Positions 10,287 to 33,461 of a stretch of DNA of 33,468 nt are shown piece by piece. This DNA comes from Gammaproteobacteria bacterium. Its GTDB lineage: Bacteria; Pseudomonadota; Gammaproteobacteria; SZUA-152. The stretch covers positions 1 through 33,468 of the forward strand of contig WFQM01000165.1 of the NCBI GenBank assembly GCA_015487095.1, in the 5' to 3' direction. A program made the position numbers and the translations under genes. Each line of letters opens with the position of its first letter. Position 1 is the stretch's first letter. Below the pieces are notes generated by a model that saw nothing but the letters and a program-made list of their open reading frames with translations, was not told where the DNA came from and ran no database searches.

Positions 10287-11819
10287 TTAGACAAGCCGTT
10301 TGCGTTCATTGGATGGTGCGATGGACATTGCTTCACGGTATTTTGCTACCGTGCGACGTGCCACATTGATACCCTGATCACCCAGCAAACCTGCCAATTT
10401 ATTATCACTCAATGGTTTGCCCGGCTTTTCAGCGGCAATCAATTTTTTCAAAATTGCGCGAATAGCGGTGGCTGAGCATTCACCGCCCGTCGCCGTTCCC
10501 ACATGGCTTGAAAAGAAAAATTTCAGTTCAAATATACCTCGCGGGGTATGCATATATTTTTTTGTGGTAACCCGGGAAATTGTTGATTCATGCATTTCAA
10601 CAATTTCTGCGATATCGTGCATCACCATAGGTTTCATGGCTTCTTCACCGTGATCAAAAAAGCCGCGCTGACGATCAACAATGGTTGTTGCTACTTTTAG
10701 CAACGTTTCGTTACGACTGCGCAGGCTTTTAATAAACCAGCGTGCTTCCTGTAAATTATTTTTCAAAAAAGTAGCGTCTTTGCTGTTATTACGCTGCGCC
10801 ATTTTCGCATAAAGGCTGTTAATGCCAATTTTTGGCGTGATGTCCGGGTTCAGTTCCACACGCCACTGACCTTTTATCTTTTTCACAAAAACATCGGGAA
10901 TAATGTATTCAGGCTGACTCTCTGTGATATGTCCGCCGGGTCGCGGATTGAGGCTTTGCACCAGCTGAATGACATGCTGCATTTGTGTTTCGGCCAATTT
11001 CATGCGGCGCATAATCAGTGGATATTCACGTTTGGCCAAGGAATCAAAATGCTCTCTGAGCAACACCTTTGCTTCAGTCAGCCAGGGTGTTTCCGCATCG
11101 TAATACTTCAGTTGGATCAGCATACATTCGCGAAGATCACGGGCAGCAATACCAGGCGGGTCAAAATCCTGCACGCGGTGTAATACTGCTTCTACTTCAT
11201 CCAGTTCAATGTCGTTACCTTCGGACAGGGATTGATGCAGTTCTTCCAGTGATGTACTAAGGTAACCATCATCGTCAATGGCGTCAATAATGGTTGTGGC
11301 AATGGCCTGGTCGGTTTCGCTGCAAGGGGAAAGATTCAGCTGCCATAATAAATGATCTTGCAGGCTTTCGCTGCTGCTGTCCGCTTGTTCGTAACTTAAG
11401 TTCTCGCCGTCATTGTTCCGCGAAACAGAGCTGTAGGAATCGACGTAGGTATCGCTGTAGGAATCTTCCCACTCACTGTCGGTGGGCAGATCGTTGGGGA
11501 TTTCCTGTTCCTGTTTGTCCACAGCACGGTCAGCTACATCGACGCTTTCGCCATCTTCACCCCGATTTTCAATACGATTTTCACCGCCACTGCTGTCAGC
11601 GGTGGCGCTCGTTTCGCCATCACTCCGTTCACCGCTATCGTTTTCACGACGTTCCGCAGCGGCCTCCTCTGTAATCTCCAGCATCGGATTGGATTCAAGT
11701 GCCTCCTGAATCTCCGTTTGCAGCTCCAGAGTAGAGAGCTGTAACAAGCGGATAGCCTGTTGCAACTGGGGGGTCATGGTCAGGTGCTGACCCAGTTTAA
11801 GCTGTAAAGTTTGCTTCAT
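10287..11819 (-). CDS. rpoN: RNA polymerase sigma-54 factor
   Basis: MKQTLQLKLGQHLTMTPQLQQAIRLLQLSTLELQ N-terminus and ARRTVAKYREAMSIAPSNERKRL RpoN box. Confidence 0.97.
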   Translation of the reverse strand: MKQTLQLKLGQHLTMTPQLQQAIRLLQLSTLELQTEIQEALESNPMLEITEEAAAERRENDSGERSDGETSATADSSGGENRIENRGEDGESVDVADRAVDKQEQEIPNDLPTDSEWEDSYSDTYVDSYSSVSRNNDGENLSYEQADSSSESLQDHLLWQLNLSPCSETDQAIATTIIDAIDDDGYLSTSLEELHQSLSEGNDIELDEVEAVLHRVQDFDPPGIAARDLRECMLIQLKYYDAETPWLTEAKVLLREHFDSLAKREYPLIMRRMKLAETQMQHVIQLVQSLNPRPGGHITESQPEYIIPDVFVKKIKGQWRVELNPDITPKIGINSLYAKMAQRNNSKDATFLKNNLQEARWFIKSLRSRNETLLKVATTIVDRQRGFFDHGEEAMKPMVMHDIAEIVEMHESTISRVTTKKYMHTPRGIFELKFFFSSHVGTATGGECSATAIRAILKKLIAAEKPGKPLSDNKLAGLLGDQGINVARRTVAKYREAMSIAPSNERKRLV

Positions 11820-25733: not shown

Positions 25734-26255
25734 ATGTTCGCCCCCTACTTTGTTTCCACTGGACGGATAACCCGCAATGCGATGTTAGCGCTACTGACCG
25801 GGGCGATTATAACGTCCCCCAGTCTTGCGGAGATTGCGAAAAAAACAGCAAGCGAGATTGAAACAGCAACGGCAATGACGCCAGCAATAGCCAGCCCGGT
25901 AGCAGGCAAAACTGATCATGTTGCACGGGCCATTTTCACCACCGCCATTGTTGACAGAGAGCCAGTAGACACACTGGAAATGTTGTCGACAGATACCAAC
26001 CGGGTTTTTTTCTTCACAGACCTGCGTGGGCTTGGCGGGCAAATTGTTACCCACCGCTGGGAACACAATGGTCAGGCCATGGCTGAGATCACCTTTAGAG
26101 TTGGTTCCGGGGCACGTTGGCGGGTTTATTCCAGCAAGAATCTGCTGCCTGAGTGGACAGGCACATGGAAGGTCGTGGTAAACAACGAGAATGGTGAAAC
26201 CCTGCACACCAGCACATTTGAATACGTAACGGCAACAATACCTGCCGCAGAATAA
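25734..26255 (+). CDS. DUF2914 domain protein
   Basis: IVTHRWEHNGQAMAEITFRVGSGARWRVYSSKNLLPEWTGTWKVVV. Confidence 0.85.
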   Translation: MFAPYFVSTGRITRNAMLALLTGAIITSPSLAEIAKKTASEIETATAMTPAIASPVAGKTDHVARAIFTTAIVDREPVDTLEMLSTDTNRVFFFTDLRGLGGQIVTHRWEHNGQAMAEITFRVGSGARWRVYSSKNLLPEWTGTWKVVVNNENGETLHTSTFEYVTATIPAAE

Positions 26256-26277: not shown

Positions 26278-29200
26278 CTACTGACTGGAGGGCATAACAT
26301 TTTCTATTGGTAGCGCTTCTGTTGGTACCAACACATCCACGCTGTCCGGGATTGTATTCCCTGATTCTTCCGCAACAGTATCACTTATGGCAGCAGGAGC
26401 TGCTGTTTCGGCGATGCTCACATCAACGTCAATAACTTTATCGACAATAGGCAGGCTATCCACCGATTCCACTGTGCTGATCTCGTCTTCAATCACAGCA
26501 TCCGTTGTTTCGGGTTCTAGCGCTTCGGGCTCAATAGTTTCCACCGCTGCTTCAGGCTCCATTGTCTTGGTAATAGCTTCCGGTGTATTCAGTGCTTTCA
26601 TCACATCATCAACCGTCTCCAGCGCGCTTTCTTCTATTATTTCTTCCCCTTGTTTTTCTATTGTTGTTGCCGGCTCTTCGGTCTGAATATTCGGCATTGA
26701 TGGCGCTTCCTCTAACACTTCGGCCACAGGGGCTTCAATCATGGGGGACACCTCCACAGCAGGCGTCGCCACTGGTGCCACCACAGGCCTCGTTTCCACA
26801 TTCGTTTTTTGCGCGGCTTCAGCCTTGATTGATTCCAGGCGTTCACGTAAACGCGCTACGGCCTCTTTGCTTTTGACCTCTTTTATATCGGAACTAGCCG
26901 ATGCTTCGGGTTCAGGCTGGCCTATTTCACCAATACTTGAGGTTACTTTGTCGGTAAATTCACCCAGTGTCTCTGTCCCTTGATTAACCACAGCCTTCAA
27001 TTTTTCCGGCGCATCACCACCTGAAAGATAAAACCAACCCACTCCGGAAATAATCACCAAAAATAACGCAGCGCCTGCCATCCAGCCCACACCTGGCCCT
27101 CGTTTTGGCTTCCGCGTTGTCACATCCTGTTGAGGTCGAATCGACCGATTGATTTCCTGCGTTTCAAACAATGGCTTTTGCGTTACCTGTTTATCTTCCA
27201 ACACTATTGATGGGTTTTGTGTGACCGCTTCCTGCCGCACTTTTTCCTCAGCAACTTTTTCTGCTTTTTGGTTACGCTCGTTTTCAACGCCCACGGAGTC
27301 TGCTGGTGAACCAATAGCATCTACATGTGGATCATCACGATAGCCCAGTGTTGCTTCCCAAATAAAATCGTCTGATACCCACTGGCGTTTTTGTTCCTGT
27401 TTTTCGACCTTCATCACTTCCCGGGGATCAATCAGGTTTGATCGGTCTTTGGCACGTTCGGCAATCTCTTTTTCATCCACAATAATAGCGTTTTCCACTT
27501 CGGCAATTTCTTCCGCCGCTGCTTCCAACTCCATAAAATCGTCCAGGCTTTCTTCATTTTTACCAATTGCTTTCAGTGCTGCCTCGCGGGCTTCGCGGGC
27601 TCGGCGAGCCTTGTCGGCATCGGCTTTTTTGCGTTGTTGAATGGCGGCGGCCTTTTTTGCCTTGGCCTGTGCTGCCAATTTGATTTTGTTTTTATCCACC
27701 TCACGCCGCGCGGCGATAATGGAACGTTTGTGCTCCAGCTCAGCCTGTAAACGTGAGGCTTCCGCTTCCGCTTTCAGGCGTTTGATTTCCTCTTCCGCCT
27801 CCCGGCGCATTTTTTCGGCGACCTGTTGCGCTCGTACAGCTTCTTCTTTGGCGATGCGTGCAACATCTTCCATTTCCTGTTTGCGAAGTATGACTTCTGC
27901 GTTAACCAGACGCTCCTGTTCAGCTAATACTTCGGTTTCTCTTTGTTGTTGAGCCTGTTGTTGTGCAATCGCCTCGGCAGCTTCACGTTTTTTACGCTCG
28001 GCATCCATGACCGCCAAATTGTTTTTCTGCGCCTCTTCTGCTTCAATCTTTTGTGCGGCCGCAAACAATCGTGCCTGTTTTTCCACTTGTTCACGCGCCG
28101 CCGCTGCTTCGGCGCGCAACTGCGCCATTTCATTTTCCATTTGCTGGCGGGCTGTTTCGGCCTCATGGGCTCGATTCGATTCTTCGGTCGCACGTCGTTC
28201 GGCTTCTTCTTCGGCCTCGGCCTGACGACGGATAATTTCATTTTCGGCACGTTGCCGTGCGGCATCAGCTTCTTCTGCACGGGTTGCTTCTTCCTCAGCA
28301 CGACGGGCAATTTCTTCCAACTGAGCCTGTTGCTGAGCCAGTTCTTCGGCACGAAGGCTCGCCGCCGCACGTTCTGCTTCGCTACGTGCGGCATCTGCGG
28401 CCAGACGTGCCTGCGCCTCAGCGGCCAAACGTGTTTGCTCTGTTTCAGCTTCCAGGCGCTCCAGTTCATGCACTGCCTGTAGACGGGCTTCTTCGGCGGC
28501 CTGCGCGCGCATGGCTTCGCGTTCTGCATCAGAGCGTGCAGCATCAGCAACCCGTTGCGCCTGTTCCTCCAACTGCATGCGCGCCACTTCAGCATCTACC
28601 TTCAACCGCTGAATTTCGGCTTCAGCTTGTAAACGGGCTTCTTCAGCAGCCCGGGTTCGACATGCCTCATCTTCCGCCCTTCTTGCCATTTCTTCCCGCT
28701 CAGCCTGCAAACGCCCCATTTCCTGCGCACGTTGTGCAGCCATTTCGCGTTCTGCCTCACTACGCGCTTGATCTGCTGCCATGCGCGCCTGTGCTTCAGC
28801 CTGAAGTCGTGCCTCGTCTGCCAGTTTTGTCAGGCGCTCAACTTCACTCTCTGCTGCCTGCGCGCGCGCAGCTTCTGATTCAGCTTTGCTTACAGCATCT
28901 TCCAGCTCTTCCTGTTGTTCGGCCAGATCTTCGGCGCGTTGCCGGGCAGCATCACGCTCGGCTTCGGAACGTGCCTGGTCTGCGGCTAAACGAGCTTGTT
29001 CTTCCATTTCGCGCTGGGTTTCTTCAGCACGGGTGCGCATGCGCTCGGCCTCGTCTTCGGCCTGCTGCCGTGCGACTTCGGCCTGTTGAGCACGCATGGC
29101 CTCAATTTCGGCTTTTTGCAAAGCACTTTCAGCCTCTTGTTGATGGCGACTGACTTCTTCAGCGCGCTGCTGAGCCATCTTGCGTTCTGTTTCGGAACGA

Positions 29201-30894
29201 GCTGCATCAGCGGCCAGTCTGGCTTGTTCTTCAACGCGCCGACGCGCCATTTCAGCTTCGGCCTTGAGACGAATAATTTCGTCTTCCGCCTCTTTTTTCG
29301 CTGTATCCGCTGACTGACGTGTCTGGACTTCCATTTCACGACGTGCATTGGCAGCATCCTGTTTGAGGCGCTCAATCTCATTCTCAGCTTTTTTCTGTGC
29401 CAGCATAGCCTCTTCGGCCCGCGCAGTTTCTGCTTCTGCCCGCTGCACGGCGGCTTCACGTTCTGCTTGTTCGGCAGCCAGATCATCGGCTCGTTTTTGT
29501 GCAGCTGCTCGTTCTGCCTCACTGCGTGCGTGATCTGCTGCACGCCGCGCTTCGTCTTCGGCTTTTTTTCGTGCAACTGCCGCTTCTTCTTTGAGCCTCG
29601 CTACTTCGGACAATGCTTGTTTGCGTGCGTTGTCTGCCGCCTGAGTGCGCTGCATTTCCTGTTGCACGCGCTGCTTGGCCTTGCTCATCAGCGCTTCCAC
29701 GCGACCATCGCTTTCCACACTGGTTGCGGCTTCGCCGTGCAAACTGACAACGTTATCTTCTGGTTTCAGAGTCGGTACGTCTTGCGGCTTTGCCTGTGTA
29801 CCTGTTGCAACAGGCGGTTTACTTGCATTTTTTTCCAATGCAGACGCCGAAACAGCATTCAGGCCATCACGCAATACAAAAGCATCCAGGCCATATTGGT
29901 TAAGCAAAAATACGGCCGCCGCCGCACGACTGCCGCCGTCACTGAAAACAATGTATTTGTGTAATTTGTTAAGCTTGCGCAGCTGCAAGCGCATTTCAGC
30001 TAACTGGATATTGCGTGCGCCAGGCAGACTGCCTCGGGAATATTCAGCCAGTTTGCGAACATCCAGCCATTGCACATCCAGGCCTGTCATGGCTTTGGCT
30101 TCATCAAAAGACACATATTGCAGAATAGGGGTGACCAGCAGGCTGATAAAATCCTCTTTTGACAGTCGCATCAGCGTACCGTCTTCCATCATGGTCACCG
30201 AGGCATTACGCTTGCCGTTGCTGATCAACGCCTCTTCACCAAAACCGGTGCCTGGCGTCAAAATCGCCAGCTTCATTAGCGGCGCACCCGGAGTCACCCG
30301 ACGGGCAACTTTCGCCTTTCCTTTAGCAATAATGTAATAGTTGTCGTCATCGTCATCCTGGTTGATCACGACAGTATTTGCACGCACCTTGATTTCCTCC
30401 ATGCGCATCATCATGGTCTGGATGTTTTCGGCGCGCAGCTTGAGGAAGACCTTGGATTGCAGGAAACGACTCATCCAGTCGGTGTCATCCTCTTCTTCCA
30501 CTGCCAGACTGGACACTTCGTAAGATTGTTGTTTTCCGCCCCAGTTGAGCAACATTTCAAGCAGGTCAGTATCGATGTTCAACAGGGAAACCGGTGTCTT
30601 CGCAACAGCGGTAACGGTGTGGGGGGATGTGGGGTCCAGCGGTTGGCGTGCCTGCTTGCTGTTGGCGACTAACTTTGTGGTTTTTCCTGAAGCATCAGTA
30701 AGCTCCAGCTTGCCAGCCACAAGGTACAGGGTACGGTGATCCCGCTCACCCTGTTTGAAAATTGTTGCCCCGGCCACCACCTGGGTCACTCGTGATTTAC
30801 CACTGAGTTCAGCCAGCATATCGGGGGACAGGTCACACAGCGGCGACAACGATCTCAGCAACTTGTGATCCAGCAGTTGTTTGGCAGCGCTCAT
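26278..30894 (-). CDS. Giant (1538 aa) cNMP-binding / rhodanese-like / coiled-coil / TM protein
   Basis: Two cNMP-binding-like folds (aa ~20-115; ~150-255, GTGFGEEALISNGKRNASV), rhodanese-like domain (VQWLDVRKLAEYSRGSLPGARNIQL), Ala/Glu/Arg coiled coil (aa ~403-1110), TM GVGWMAGAALFLVIISGVGWFYL (aa ~1268-1290), Glu/Pro-rich tail. Confidence 0.92.
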   Translation of the reverse strand: MSAAKQLLDHKLLRSLSPLCDLSPDMLAELSGKSRVTQVVAGATIFKQGERDHRTLYLVAGKLELTDASGKTTKLVANSKQARQPLDPTSPHTVTAVAKTPVSLLNIDTDLLEMLLNWGGKQQSYEVSSLAVEEEDDTDWMSRFLQSKVFLKLRAENIQTMMMRMEEIKVRANTVVINQDDDDDNYYIIAKGKAKVARRVTPGAPLMKLAILTPGTGFGEEALISNGKRNASVTMMEDGTLMRLSKEDFISLLVTPILQYVSFDEAKAMTGLDVQWLDVRKLAEYSRGSLPGARNIQLAEMRLQLRKLNKLHKYIVFSDGGSRAAAAVFLLNQYGLDAFVLRDGLNAVSASALEKNASKPPVATGTQAKPQDVPTLKPEDNVVSLHGEAATSVESDGRVEALMSKAKQRVQQEMQRTQAADNARKQALSEVARLKEEAAVARKKAEDEARRAADHARSEAERAAAQKRADDLAAEQAEREAAVQRAEAETARAEEAMLAQKKAENEIERLKQDAANARREMEVQTRQSADTAKKEAEDEIIRLKAEAEMARRRVEEQARLAADAARSETERKMAQQRAEEVSRHQQEAESALQKAEIEAMRAQQAEVARQQAEDEAERMRTRAEETQREMEEQARLAADQARSEAERDAARQRAEDLAEQQEELEDAVSKAESEAARAQAAESEVERLTKLADEARLQAEAQARMAADQARSEAEREMAAQRAQEMGRLQAEREEMARRAEDEACRTRAAEEARLQAEAEIQRLKVDAEVARMQLEEQAQRVADAARSDAEREAMRAQAAEEARLQAVHELERLEAETEQTRLAAEAQARLAADAARSEAERAAASLRAEELAQQQAQLEEIARRAEEEATRAEEADAARQRAENEIIRRQAEAEEEAERRATEESNRAHEAETARQQMENEMAQLRAEAAAAREQVEKQARLFAAAQKIEAEEAQKNNLAVMDAERKKREAAEAIAQQQAQQQRETEVLAEQERLVNAEVILRKQEMEDVARIAKEEAVRAQQVAEKMRREAEEEIKRLKAEAEASRLQAELEHKRSIIAARREVDKNKIKLAAQAKAKKAAAIQQRKKADADKARRAREAREAALKAIGKNEESLDDFMELEAAAEEIAEVENAIIVDEKEIAERAKDRSNLIDPREVMKVEKQEQKRQWVSDDFIWEATLGYRDDPHVDAIGSPADSVGVENERNQKAEKVAEEKVRQEAVTQNPSIVLEDKQVTQKPLFETQEINRSIRPQQDVTTRKPKRGPGVGWMAGAALFLVIISGVGWFYLSGGDAPEKLKAVVNQGTETLGEFTDKVTSSIGEIGQPEPEASASSDIKEVKSKEAVARLRERLESIKAEAAQKTNVETRPVVAPVATPAVEVSPMIEAPVAEVLEEAPSMPNIQTEEPATTIEKQGEEIIEESALETVDDVMKALNTPEAITKTMEPEAAVETIEPEALEPETTDAVIEDEISTVESVDSLPIVDKVIDVDVSIAETAAPAAISDTVAEESGNTIPDSVDVLVPTEALPIENVMPSSQ

Positions 30895-31100: not shown

Positions 31101-31673
31101 TTATTTAGCCTTGAGCACAATCGGGTCTATGGATTGTGCCCGCAGGCGGTTACGCACTATGTCCATTTTGCGCGCGCTTTGGAAGGGGCCAACTCGCACC
31201 CTATACCAAGTCTGACTGTCATTAATGGTGACGCGCTGAATATGGGACTCAATGTTATTTAATGCCAGCTGAGCCCGCATGCGATCAGCATCTTCCATGC
31301 GACGGAAAGAGCCCACTTGCAAATAATAGGTAATGGAATCCGCAGTTTTGCGCTCGCGTTCCGTCGCTAATTCTTGCGGCGGGATAAATACCTCCATTTC
31401 TGGCAACAAATTATAAAAGTCAAAACGCGGTTTTTTGTCTGTTTGTTCCCTCGATTTGTTATTAATTGTTGCTTGTTTGGGGGCAGCCTGACTCTTTTCC
31501 ACCACGGGTGCTGGTGTTGCACGCTCACTGCCCGTTTGTAAATCATCTCTGAGATACACCAGTAGCGCGACCAACAAGCCAATCAACAAACCACCAAGCA
31601 TCCACAGCCAACCCGGTGTTGGCTTGGAAGGCTTGGCTTTGGGTCTGGAAGTATTTTTGTAATCTTTGGCCAT
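31101..31673 (-). CDS. SPOR domain protein, FtsN-like
   Basis: N-terminal TM (GWLWMLGGLLIGLLVALLVYL), C-terminal SPOR (YYLQVGSFRRMEDADRMRAQL...YRVRVGPFQSARKMDIVRNRL); downstream of argS. Confidence 0.9.
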   Translation of the reverse strand: MAKDYKNTSRPKAKPSKPTPGWLWMLGGLLIGLLVALLVYLRDDLQTGSERATPAPVVEKSQAAPKQATINNKSREQTDKKPRFDFYNLLPEMEVFIPPQELATERERKTADSITYYLQVGSFRRMEDADRMRAQLALNNIESHIQRVTINDSQTWYRVRVGPFQSARKMDIVRNRLRAQSIDPIVLKAK

Positions 31674-31688
31674 AACCGGGACAGCGCT

Positions 31689-33461
31689 TTACATGGTTTC
31701 CGGTGCCGACACGGCCAACAGCCCCAGGCCGTTAGCAAGCACCTGCCGTGTCGCCTTAATCAAACACAGGCGCGCATCACGCACGGCGGCATCATCTACC
31801 AAAAACTGGTGGGCGTTGTAATACGTGTGGAAATCATTGGCTAGCTCACGCAGGAAATGCGCCAACTGATGCGGCTCATGATTCAACGCTGCGGCCTCCA
31901 CCACTTCCGGGTAACGTGAAAGCCTAGTCAGCAGGGCTTGCTCATGTGTTTCACTTAATACCGCCAAACTGGAAAGACCATTATCACTATTGTGAGTCAG
32001 GCTTTTTTCAGCCAGCTGACGGAATACGCTACAGACTCGTGCGTGGGCATATTGAATATAATACACCGGGTTGTCACTGCTCTGAGACTTGGCGAGATCG
32101 AGATCAAAATCCATGTGCTGTTCGCACTTGCGCATCACGTAGAAAAACCGTGCCGCATCGTCGCCCACTTCTTCGCGCAATTCACGTAAGGTAACAAACT
32201 CACCGGAGCGGGTAGACATCTGTGCCTTCTCGCCACCGCGATACAAAATTGCAAACTGCACCAGCAGCACGTCAAGCTTATCGGCATCATCGCCCAACGC
32301 AGTGAGCGCAGCTTTAACGCGCGGCACATAACCGTGATGATCGGCCCCCCACACGTCGATGACACGGTCAAAACCACGCTCCAGCTTTTGCATATGATAC
32401 GCAATATCTGACGCAAAATAAGTGGTTTGACCGTTGTCACGCACCACTACGCGGTCTTTTTCGTCCCCAAAATCAGTAGACCTAAACCACCATGCGCCGT
32501 CTTTTTCGTACAGATGACCGGCATCTTTGAGACGTTCAACGGCACGCCCTACCGCACCCGACTCAGTGAGCGAACGTTCGGAAAACCATGCTTCGTAAAC
32601 CACGCCGAAACCTTCAAGGTCACGGCGAATGTCATCAAGAATGCTGTTGAGCCCGGCATCAAACACCGCGCGAAAGGCTGTACCACCCAACAACTCTTTA
32701 GCACGATTGATCACGGCATCGATATACTGCTCTTTATCGCCACCTTCGCTCTCGTCAGCGGGTAGATTCGTCAATACAATTTGTGCAGCATGCCGAAAAG
32801 CATCGCCGTGTTCACGCTGTAACGTGGCAGCGATATCCCACACATAATCACCTTTATAGCCGTTAACGGGAAACGGCAGTTCATCATTGGCATTTTCACC
32901 ACACAGGTCGAGATAACGCAGCCATACACTGGCAGCAAGAATATCCATTTGCCGCCCGGCATCGTTGACGTAATATTCACGATGCACCTTAAAACCCACC
33001 GCTGCCAGCAAATCCGCCACTGCCGCGCCATAAGCTGCGCCACGACCGTGACCAACATGCAGCGGACCAGTGGGATTAGCAGAGACAAACTCCACCTGCA
33101 CGGATTTGTCGTCACCAATAGTGGAGCGCCCGTAGGCCTCTCCTGCTTCCAGCACTACCTCCACCACAGCGTAAACTGCCGCATCAGTGAGCGTAAAATT
33201 AATAAAACCCGGCCCGGCGATTTCGATTTTTGCTACCCGATCAGCCGTTGGCAATGCGGCAACAATTTTCTCTGCCAGGTCACGGGGCTTGCAACGCACC
33301 GGTTTAGCCAGCATCAGCGCAATATTGCAGGCGTAGTCACCGTGACTGGCATCGCGGGTGCGATCAATCTGGATGTTCGGTGACAGATCCGCAGGCAACA
33401 CGTTTTGAGATTTCAGCGTATCGATAGCGGTTTGAATCAGAGAAGTGAGCTGTTGTTTCAT
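31689..33461 (-). CDS. argS: Arginyl-tRNA synthetase
   Basis: [30 protein letters not shown] (HIGH) and [14 protein letters not shown] (KMSKS-like). Confidence 0.97.

Follow-up and report, generated by a model that had tools for sequence, protein, structure and literature searches.

A membrane-anchored giant protein of gammaproteobacteria combining cyclic-nucleotide-binding-like folds, a pseudo-rhodanese domain and a helical rod: a candidate envelope tether

TolA is an inner-membrane protein whose long Ala/charged helix lies in the periplasm, beside a motor of the ExbBD/TolQR type. In Myxococcus, AglZ and also FrzS begin with a degenerate signalling domain and continue as a long coiled coil, and AglZ acts together with the Agl/Glt machine (PMC3169522, PMC1974792, PMC4488436), whose core complex was reported by Luciano et al. 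to be conserved and to have an unknown function in gammaproteobacteria (PMC3169522). As regards cyclic nucleotides, cAMP is thought to act via CRP alone in most bacteria (PMC11139211, PMC7247823). CbpA of Pseudomonas aeruginosa is described as a polar, cAMP-binding protein that is not a transcription factor (PMC7247823, PMC3019171). Finally, the regulatory tandem CNB domains of PKA and PKG (PDB 4z07, 6byr) are built of cyclic-nucleotide-binding folds placed one after the other.

The protein studied here is encoded by a giant ORF of the window (the whole stretch of 33,468 nucleotides that was analysed, contig WFQM01000165.1, from a gammaproteobacterium), whose features are collected in Table 1. 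It shares the tandem cyclic-nucleotide-binding (cNMP) folds of PKA and PKG, but it is bacterial, only one of its two sites is intact, and it has no kinase, being fused instead to a rhodanese fold, a rod and a membrane anchor. The succession of a degenerate signalling domain and a long helical stretch is also that of AglZ and FrzS. However, the signalling domain of these proteins is a receiver domain and that of the window protein a cNMP domain, and no homology is claimed. To our knowledge, neither AglZ nor FrzS has a transmembrane (TM) helix or a periplasmic tail, and AglZ could be considered a functional analogue at most. With respect to TolA, its helix is periplasmic whereas the rod of the window protein is predicted to be cytoplasmic, and Pfam and family-model searches gave no TolA family match to the window protein.

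Table 1. Position of the giant ORF, of its parts and of the neighbouring genes in the window
Feature	Coordinates	Strand	Basis
DUF2914 protein, signal-peptide-like start, convergent to giant	25734..26255	+	Pfam E 4.4e-19
Giant ORF, 1538 aa	26278..30894	-	cNMP-cNMP-rhodanese head, long helix, motif, TM, periplasmic tail
Predicted periplasmic Glu/Pro/Ala-rich tail (aa 1292-1538), one conserved short helix (ARLRERLESIKAEA)	26281..27021	-	Conservation, AF2
Single transmembrane helix (aa 1269-1291)	27022..27090	-	Positive-inside rule: N-terminus cytoplasmic
Juxtamembrane short motif WVSDDFIWEATLGYRDD (aa 1172-1188)	27331..27381	-	Conserved in f1, f37, f81; short helix in low-confidence AF2 region
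Ala/Glu/Arg-rich charged helix (aa 398-1156), variable-length rod	27427..29703	-	Charge spacing, composition; 0 to ~760 aa in relatives
Rhodanese-like domain (aa 263-350)	29845..30108	-	Pfam E 3.7e-11; AF2
Ser318 at rhodanese catalytic Cys position	29941..29943	-	Alignment of relatives
cNMP domain 2 (aa 140-257), ligand-competent by sequence	30124..30477	-	Pfam aa 168-253, Foldseek tandem CNB
Domain 2 phosphate-binding cassette FGEEALISNGKRNASV (aa 218-233; E220, R229)	30196..30243	-	Alignment of relatives
cNMP-like domain 1 (aa 10-122), phosphate-binding cassette degenerate	30529..30867	-	AF2 model, Pfam two stretches, alignment
FtsN-like SPOR membrane protein, upstream neighbour in f1	31101..31673	-	Matches FtsN models
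argS	31689..33461	-	Pfam, neighbourhood comparison

Two stretches of the 1538-aa protein match Pfam cNMP_binding (E 1.8e-22) and one, aa 265-350, matches Rhodanese (E 3.7e-11); Pfam identified no further domain, FGE included. The initial annotation had described one multi-domain ORF and had named two ways in which this could fail, a lack of support for the cNMP folds in domain searches and an assembly fusion of genes that are separate in relatives. As to the first, both folds were recovered by Pfam and by AlphaFold2 with Foldseek. As to the second, orthologues from genomes of the same genus and family were full-length, at 1468-1639 aa, where complete, and their ORF was uninterrupted and had the same boundaries in many independent assemblies, public MAGs among them. 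An assembly or annotation artefact joining distinct genes, in whose favour it may be mentioned that the G016 equivalent is split into two ORFs, was rejected on account of these intact orthologues and has a practically negligible probability. The G016 locus (L036:6585-10200, - strand) has one ORF of 910 aa for head and rod and, ~100 bp further, another of 259 aa for motif, TM helix and tail, and could represent either a true fission or a frameshift. A literature search found no description of cNMP-rhodanese-coiled-coil or cNMP-FGE fusions. The protein is real and conserved, and its architecture is unusual and apparently undescribed among cNMP effector proteins. The explanation that we favour, tentatively and with somewhat less than even confidence, is that it acts as a tether which responds to cAMP and regulates a machine of the envelope, possibly Agl/Glt.

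The AlphaFold2 model of aa 1-366, obtained with an input alignment of 45 relatives, displayed two cNMP folds and a rhodanese fold with a mean pLDDT of 82. Foldseek matched this model to the regulatory subunits of PKG and PKA through their tandem CNB domains (E ~1e-19), and phmmer against the PDB agreed with this. The two cNMP-binding-like domains read initially from the sequence were in this way confirmed, with the refinement that the phosphate-binding cassette is found in domain 2 and is absent from domain 1. In the alignment of 98 relatives, the domain 2 cassette, FGEEAL...RNASV (FGE...R), has both the Glu and the Arg, E220 and R229 being each kept in 96 of the 98, and the cassette of domain 1 was gone in the members inspected. 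The existence of two equivalent cNMP sites was discarded because of this loss. In addition, the same genome has an adenylate cyclase of class I and four matches of the class III cyclase type, so cyclic nucleotides are likely available. We infer that domain 2 binds a cyclic nucleotide, with cAMP as the most likely one. Where CRP has Ser83, adjoining the conserved Arg, domain 2 has an Asn, and for this reason the ligand may be other than cAMP.

The rhodanese-like domain proposed in the same annotation was also recognised as a fold, by Pfam and in the AlphaFold2 model, with the difference that its catalytic Cys is Ser318. According to the same alignment of 98 relatives, all 22 members of f1, the family of the window protein, have Ser at this position, and 71 of the 76 members outside it have Cys; the free-standing short relatives keep Cys in 21/21. 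The domain in the window protein is, by its sequence, a dead rhodanese, and an active one was rejected because of the change to Ser throughout f1. The same replacement makes it very improbable that the protein is a sulfur or redox sensor or carrier working via this domain, a role that could be proposed from the presence of the fold and from the Cys of the free-standing relatives.

The following ~700 aa had been annotated as an Ala/Glu/Arg coiled coil. The helical part of this proposal stands: aa 379-1156 is the longest Pro-free run of the protein, opposite charges at i+3 and i+4 in the rod are, in one order each, roughly double what shuffled sequences give, and like charges so spaced are depleted (23-29 versus 64 expected), a strong sign of a helix. 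The coiled-coil part is less certain: no 3.5-residue hydrophobic (heptad) period above that of shuffles was detected in the rod, and a classical heptad coiled coil is not supported. Large hydrophobic residues (ILMVFWY) make up only 14% of the rod, and a loose super-repeat of ~76 aa was observed. On this basis the rod is read as a continuous salt-bridged Ala-rich helix, possibly oligomeric. Stretched out completely, at 0.15 nm per residue, it would span ~115 nm.

A head-profile search found the cNMP-cNMP-rhodanese module, free or on rods, in 170 of the 369 gammaproteobacterial genomes. It occurs as free-standing proteins of ~355 aa, as rods of 700-900 aa without TM helix, as TM giants of 1000-2000 aa and in one SulP-transporter fusion, a 936-aa protein (L042:4243-7053, + strand) in which a SulP-like transporter is joined to the module. 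Paired cNMP-rhodanese rods of 740-1290 aa, without TM helix and in tandem or divergent arrangement, are found at L105, L115, L116 and L117, most of them with a conserved HDQxLLDELA-type C-terminus. Most giants outside the window's family finish in an FGE-sulfatase-like domain. The 'GGS' region at the C-terminus of that domain is devoid of the catalytic Cys pair of true FGE, so the domain is probably a reused fold. These FGE giants (such as L037, L080 and L082) resemble the window protein in having the head, a long helical rod, one TM helix and a periplasmic C-terminus, but they differ from it in the periplasmic FGE-sulfatase-like domain, in the usually intact rhodanese Cys, in a TerB-family gene that 14 of 27 of them (L080, L082 and L037, for example) have within a few kb, mostly upstream and in the same orientation, and in their clade. 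In the head tree, f1 groups with the plain-tail TM proteins of f36, f124 and f75 at 99/97, and in the tree including the f37 and f81 proteins a 99/94 branch has all the plain-tail members on the same side, the root being assumed among the other forms. By its head sequence the window protein is a member of this plain-tail clade, separate from the FGE giants.

Within the plain-tail clade the rod ranges from ~0 to 760 residues, and the f37 and f81 proteins (570-870 aa) have head, motif, TM helix and tail with little or no rod. The giant coil is consequently long in f1, as annotated, but inessential as a family trait, and from this distribution the rod looks like a spacer of evolvable length. The same data bear on a rival view, in which the protein is a structural rod of the envelope or a cytoskeletal tether, similar to TolA or FilP, and its cNMP and rhodanese folds are interaction modules that bind no ligand. 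Such a protein would agree with the loss of key residues from domain 1 and the rhodanese and with a rod that is the dominant part of the f1 proteins, but it would hardly be expected to have next to no rod in f37 and f81 while E220 and R229 are kept in nearly all of 98 diverse members, and we consider it unlikely, although a serious candidate.

Between the rod and the membrane, the consensus W[VMIL]SDxxxWExxLGxRxD is the single strongly conserved peptide of an otherwise poorly conserved linker. A class-wide profile search located it in f1, f37 and f81 only, besides a match in G370 (E 0.0085) that was judged to be due to chance, the protein being unrelated and without the cNMP-rhodanese head. 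One f1 genome also encodes (L121:4262-6160, - strand) a 632-aa protein lacking the cNMP head. It has WMSD..WETTLGMR close to the N-terminus, together with a TM helix and a C-terminal region that looks TPR-like by eye. Since the motif is present both in the rod-poor f37 and f81 proteins and in this headless one, its distribution makes it look like a portable, shared docking peptide. The sole strong hydrophobic segment of the protein, aa 1268-1291, coincides with the TM helix annotated at aa ~1268-1290. It is preceded by RKPKR and for this reason an N-inside topology is predicted, with a cytoplasmic rod and a periplasmic tail. The Glu/Pro/Ala-rich tail, estimated before at ~245 aa, has ~248 aa and is predicted to be disordered apart from its short helix; AlphaFold2 gave low confidence (pLDDT 61) for the juxtamembrane and tail region.

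Almost every f1 locus of sufficient length shows the order argS-SPOR-giant, the exceptions being L024 and L034. This order, together with the match of the SPOR protein to FtsN models, would fit a division or septal factor acting with its upstream FtsN-like neighbour, and a division role had indeed been proposed in the initial annotation. However, the argS-SPOR pair is not linked to the giant in the related families f36, f124, f75, f37 and f81, where the giant lies elsewhere, and no promoter or terminator was predicted either way in the 206-bp SPOR-giant gap. Moreover, argS beside an ftsN-like gene is a common gammaproteobacterial arrangement, also without this protein. The restriction of the linkage to f1 and the frequency of the argS/ftsN-like pairing make the division argument weak, and such a role is improbable. 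On the other side of the giant, a convergent DUF2914 gene is found downstream in many, not all, f1 loci and also in f36, f75 and one f37 genome, being a neighbour kept across several families. A literature search on DUF2914 function gave nothing useful.

The annotated architecture holds, and so does the more general view that a nucleotide sensor in the cytoplasm is attached to the envelope. For the cyclic-nucleotide-responsive tether that we favour, we infer ligand binding, switching, motif docking, control of Agl/Glt and partnership with DUF2914 as follows. The protein would be a single-pass, N-in inner-membrane protein, its domain 2 receiving the cyclic nucleotide, most likely cAMP, and its domain 1 and pseudo-rhodanese acting as dimer or partner surfaces. 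The rod would keep the head at a distance from the membrane, and the WVSD..WE..LG.R motif and the periplasmic tail would hold a membrane machine. cAMP would cause a conformational or oligomeric switch that alters the recruitment or clustering of this machine. The best candidate for it is a proton-driven one, the Agl/Glt core complex (AglR, two ExbD-like proteins, GltG and TPR proteins), encoded elsewhere in the genome, and the DUF2914 protein is a possible periplasmic partner. If this were true, a widespread family of membrane-anchored cNMP receptors would give a direct, non-transcriptional cyclic-nucleotide output at the envelope, with the head module present in nearly half of the genomes searched.

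The relation with Agl/Glt comes from gene linkage and co-occurrence. Families f36 and f124 have the giant directly downstream of ExbD-ExbD-GltG, in four genomes altogether, this GltG being of the type with the AgmX/PglI C-terminal domain and matching NF033768 above cut-off in both proteins tested. In f1 the giant adjoins argS-SPOR and not GltG; the window's genome encodes elsewhere a GltG protein 47% identical to that of f36. GltG was found in 84 of the 369 class genomes overall. Among the matches listed, it was present in 15 of 16 plain-tail clade genomes (the search of the 369 class genomes gave no GltG match in clade genome G146) against 14 of 31 for the FGE giants examined. By families, and again among the matches listed, it was present in 6/6 plain-tail families against ~45 of at least 182 overall (hypergeometric p ~2e-4), and p-values of this kind overstate the case because the genomes share ancestry and because the head module at large also goes together with GltG (66/170 genomes with cNMP-rhodanese and 18/199 without, among the matches listed). 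These genome tallies were made by hand from the head-module matches listed and the GltG table. The protein, with its concrete lead to an envelope machine, is worth pursuing. A more specific proposal, and a doubtful one, is that it represents the founding type of regulators that gate the Agl/Glt core motor of gammaproteobacteria in response to cAMP, with a head on a rod of evolvable length that is docked through the portable juxtamembrane motif. In that case the level of a second messenger would set where this proton-driven machine is placed or how active it is. In the window's genome, an Agl/Glt-type core complex with TPR proteins, an AglR-like protein, two ExbD-like proteins and GltG is encoded at L120:8462-16001 (- strand), its AglR and TPR genes having been assigned by eye. 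This locus also contains a small gene of ~100 aa, at 11389-11697.
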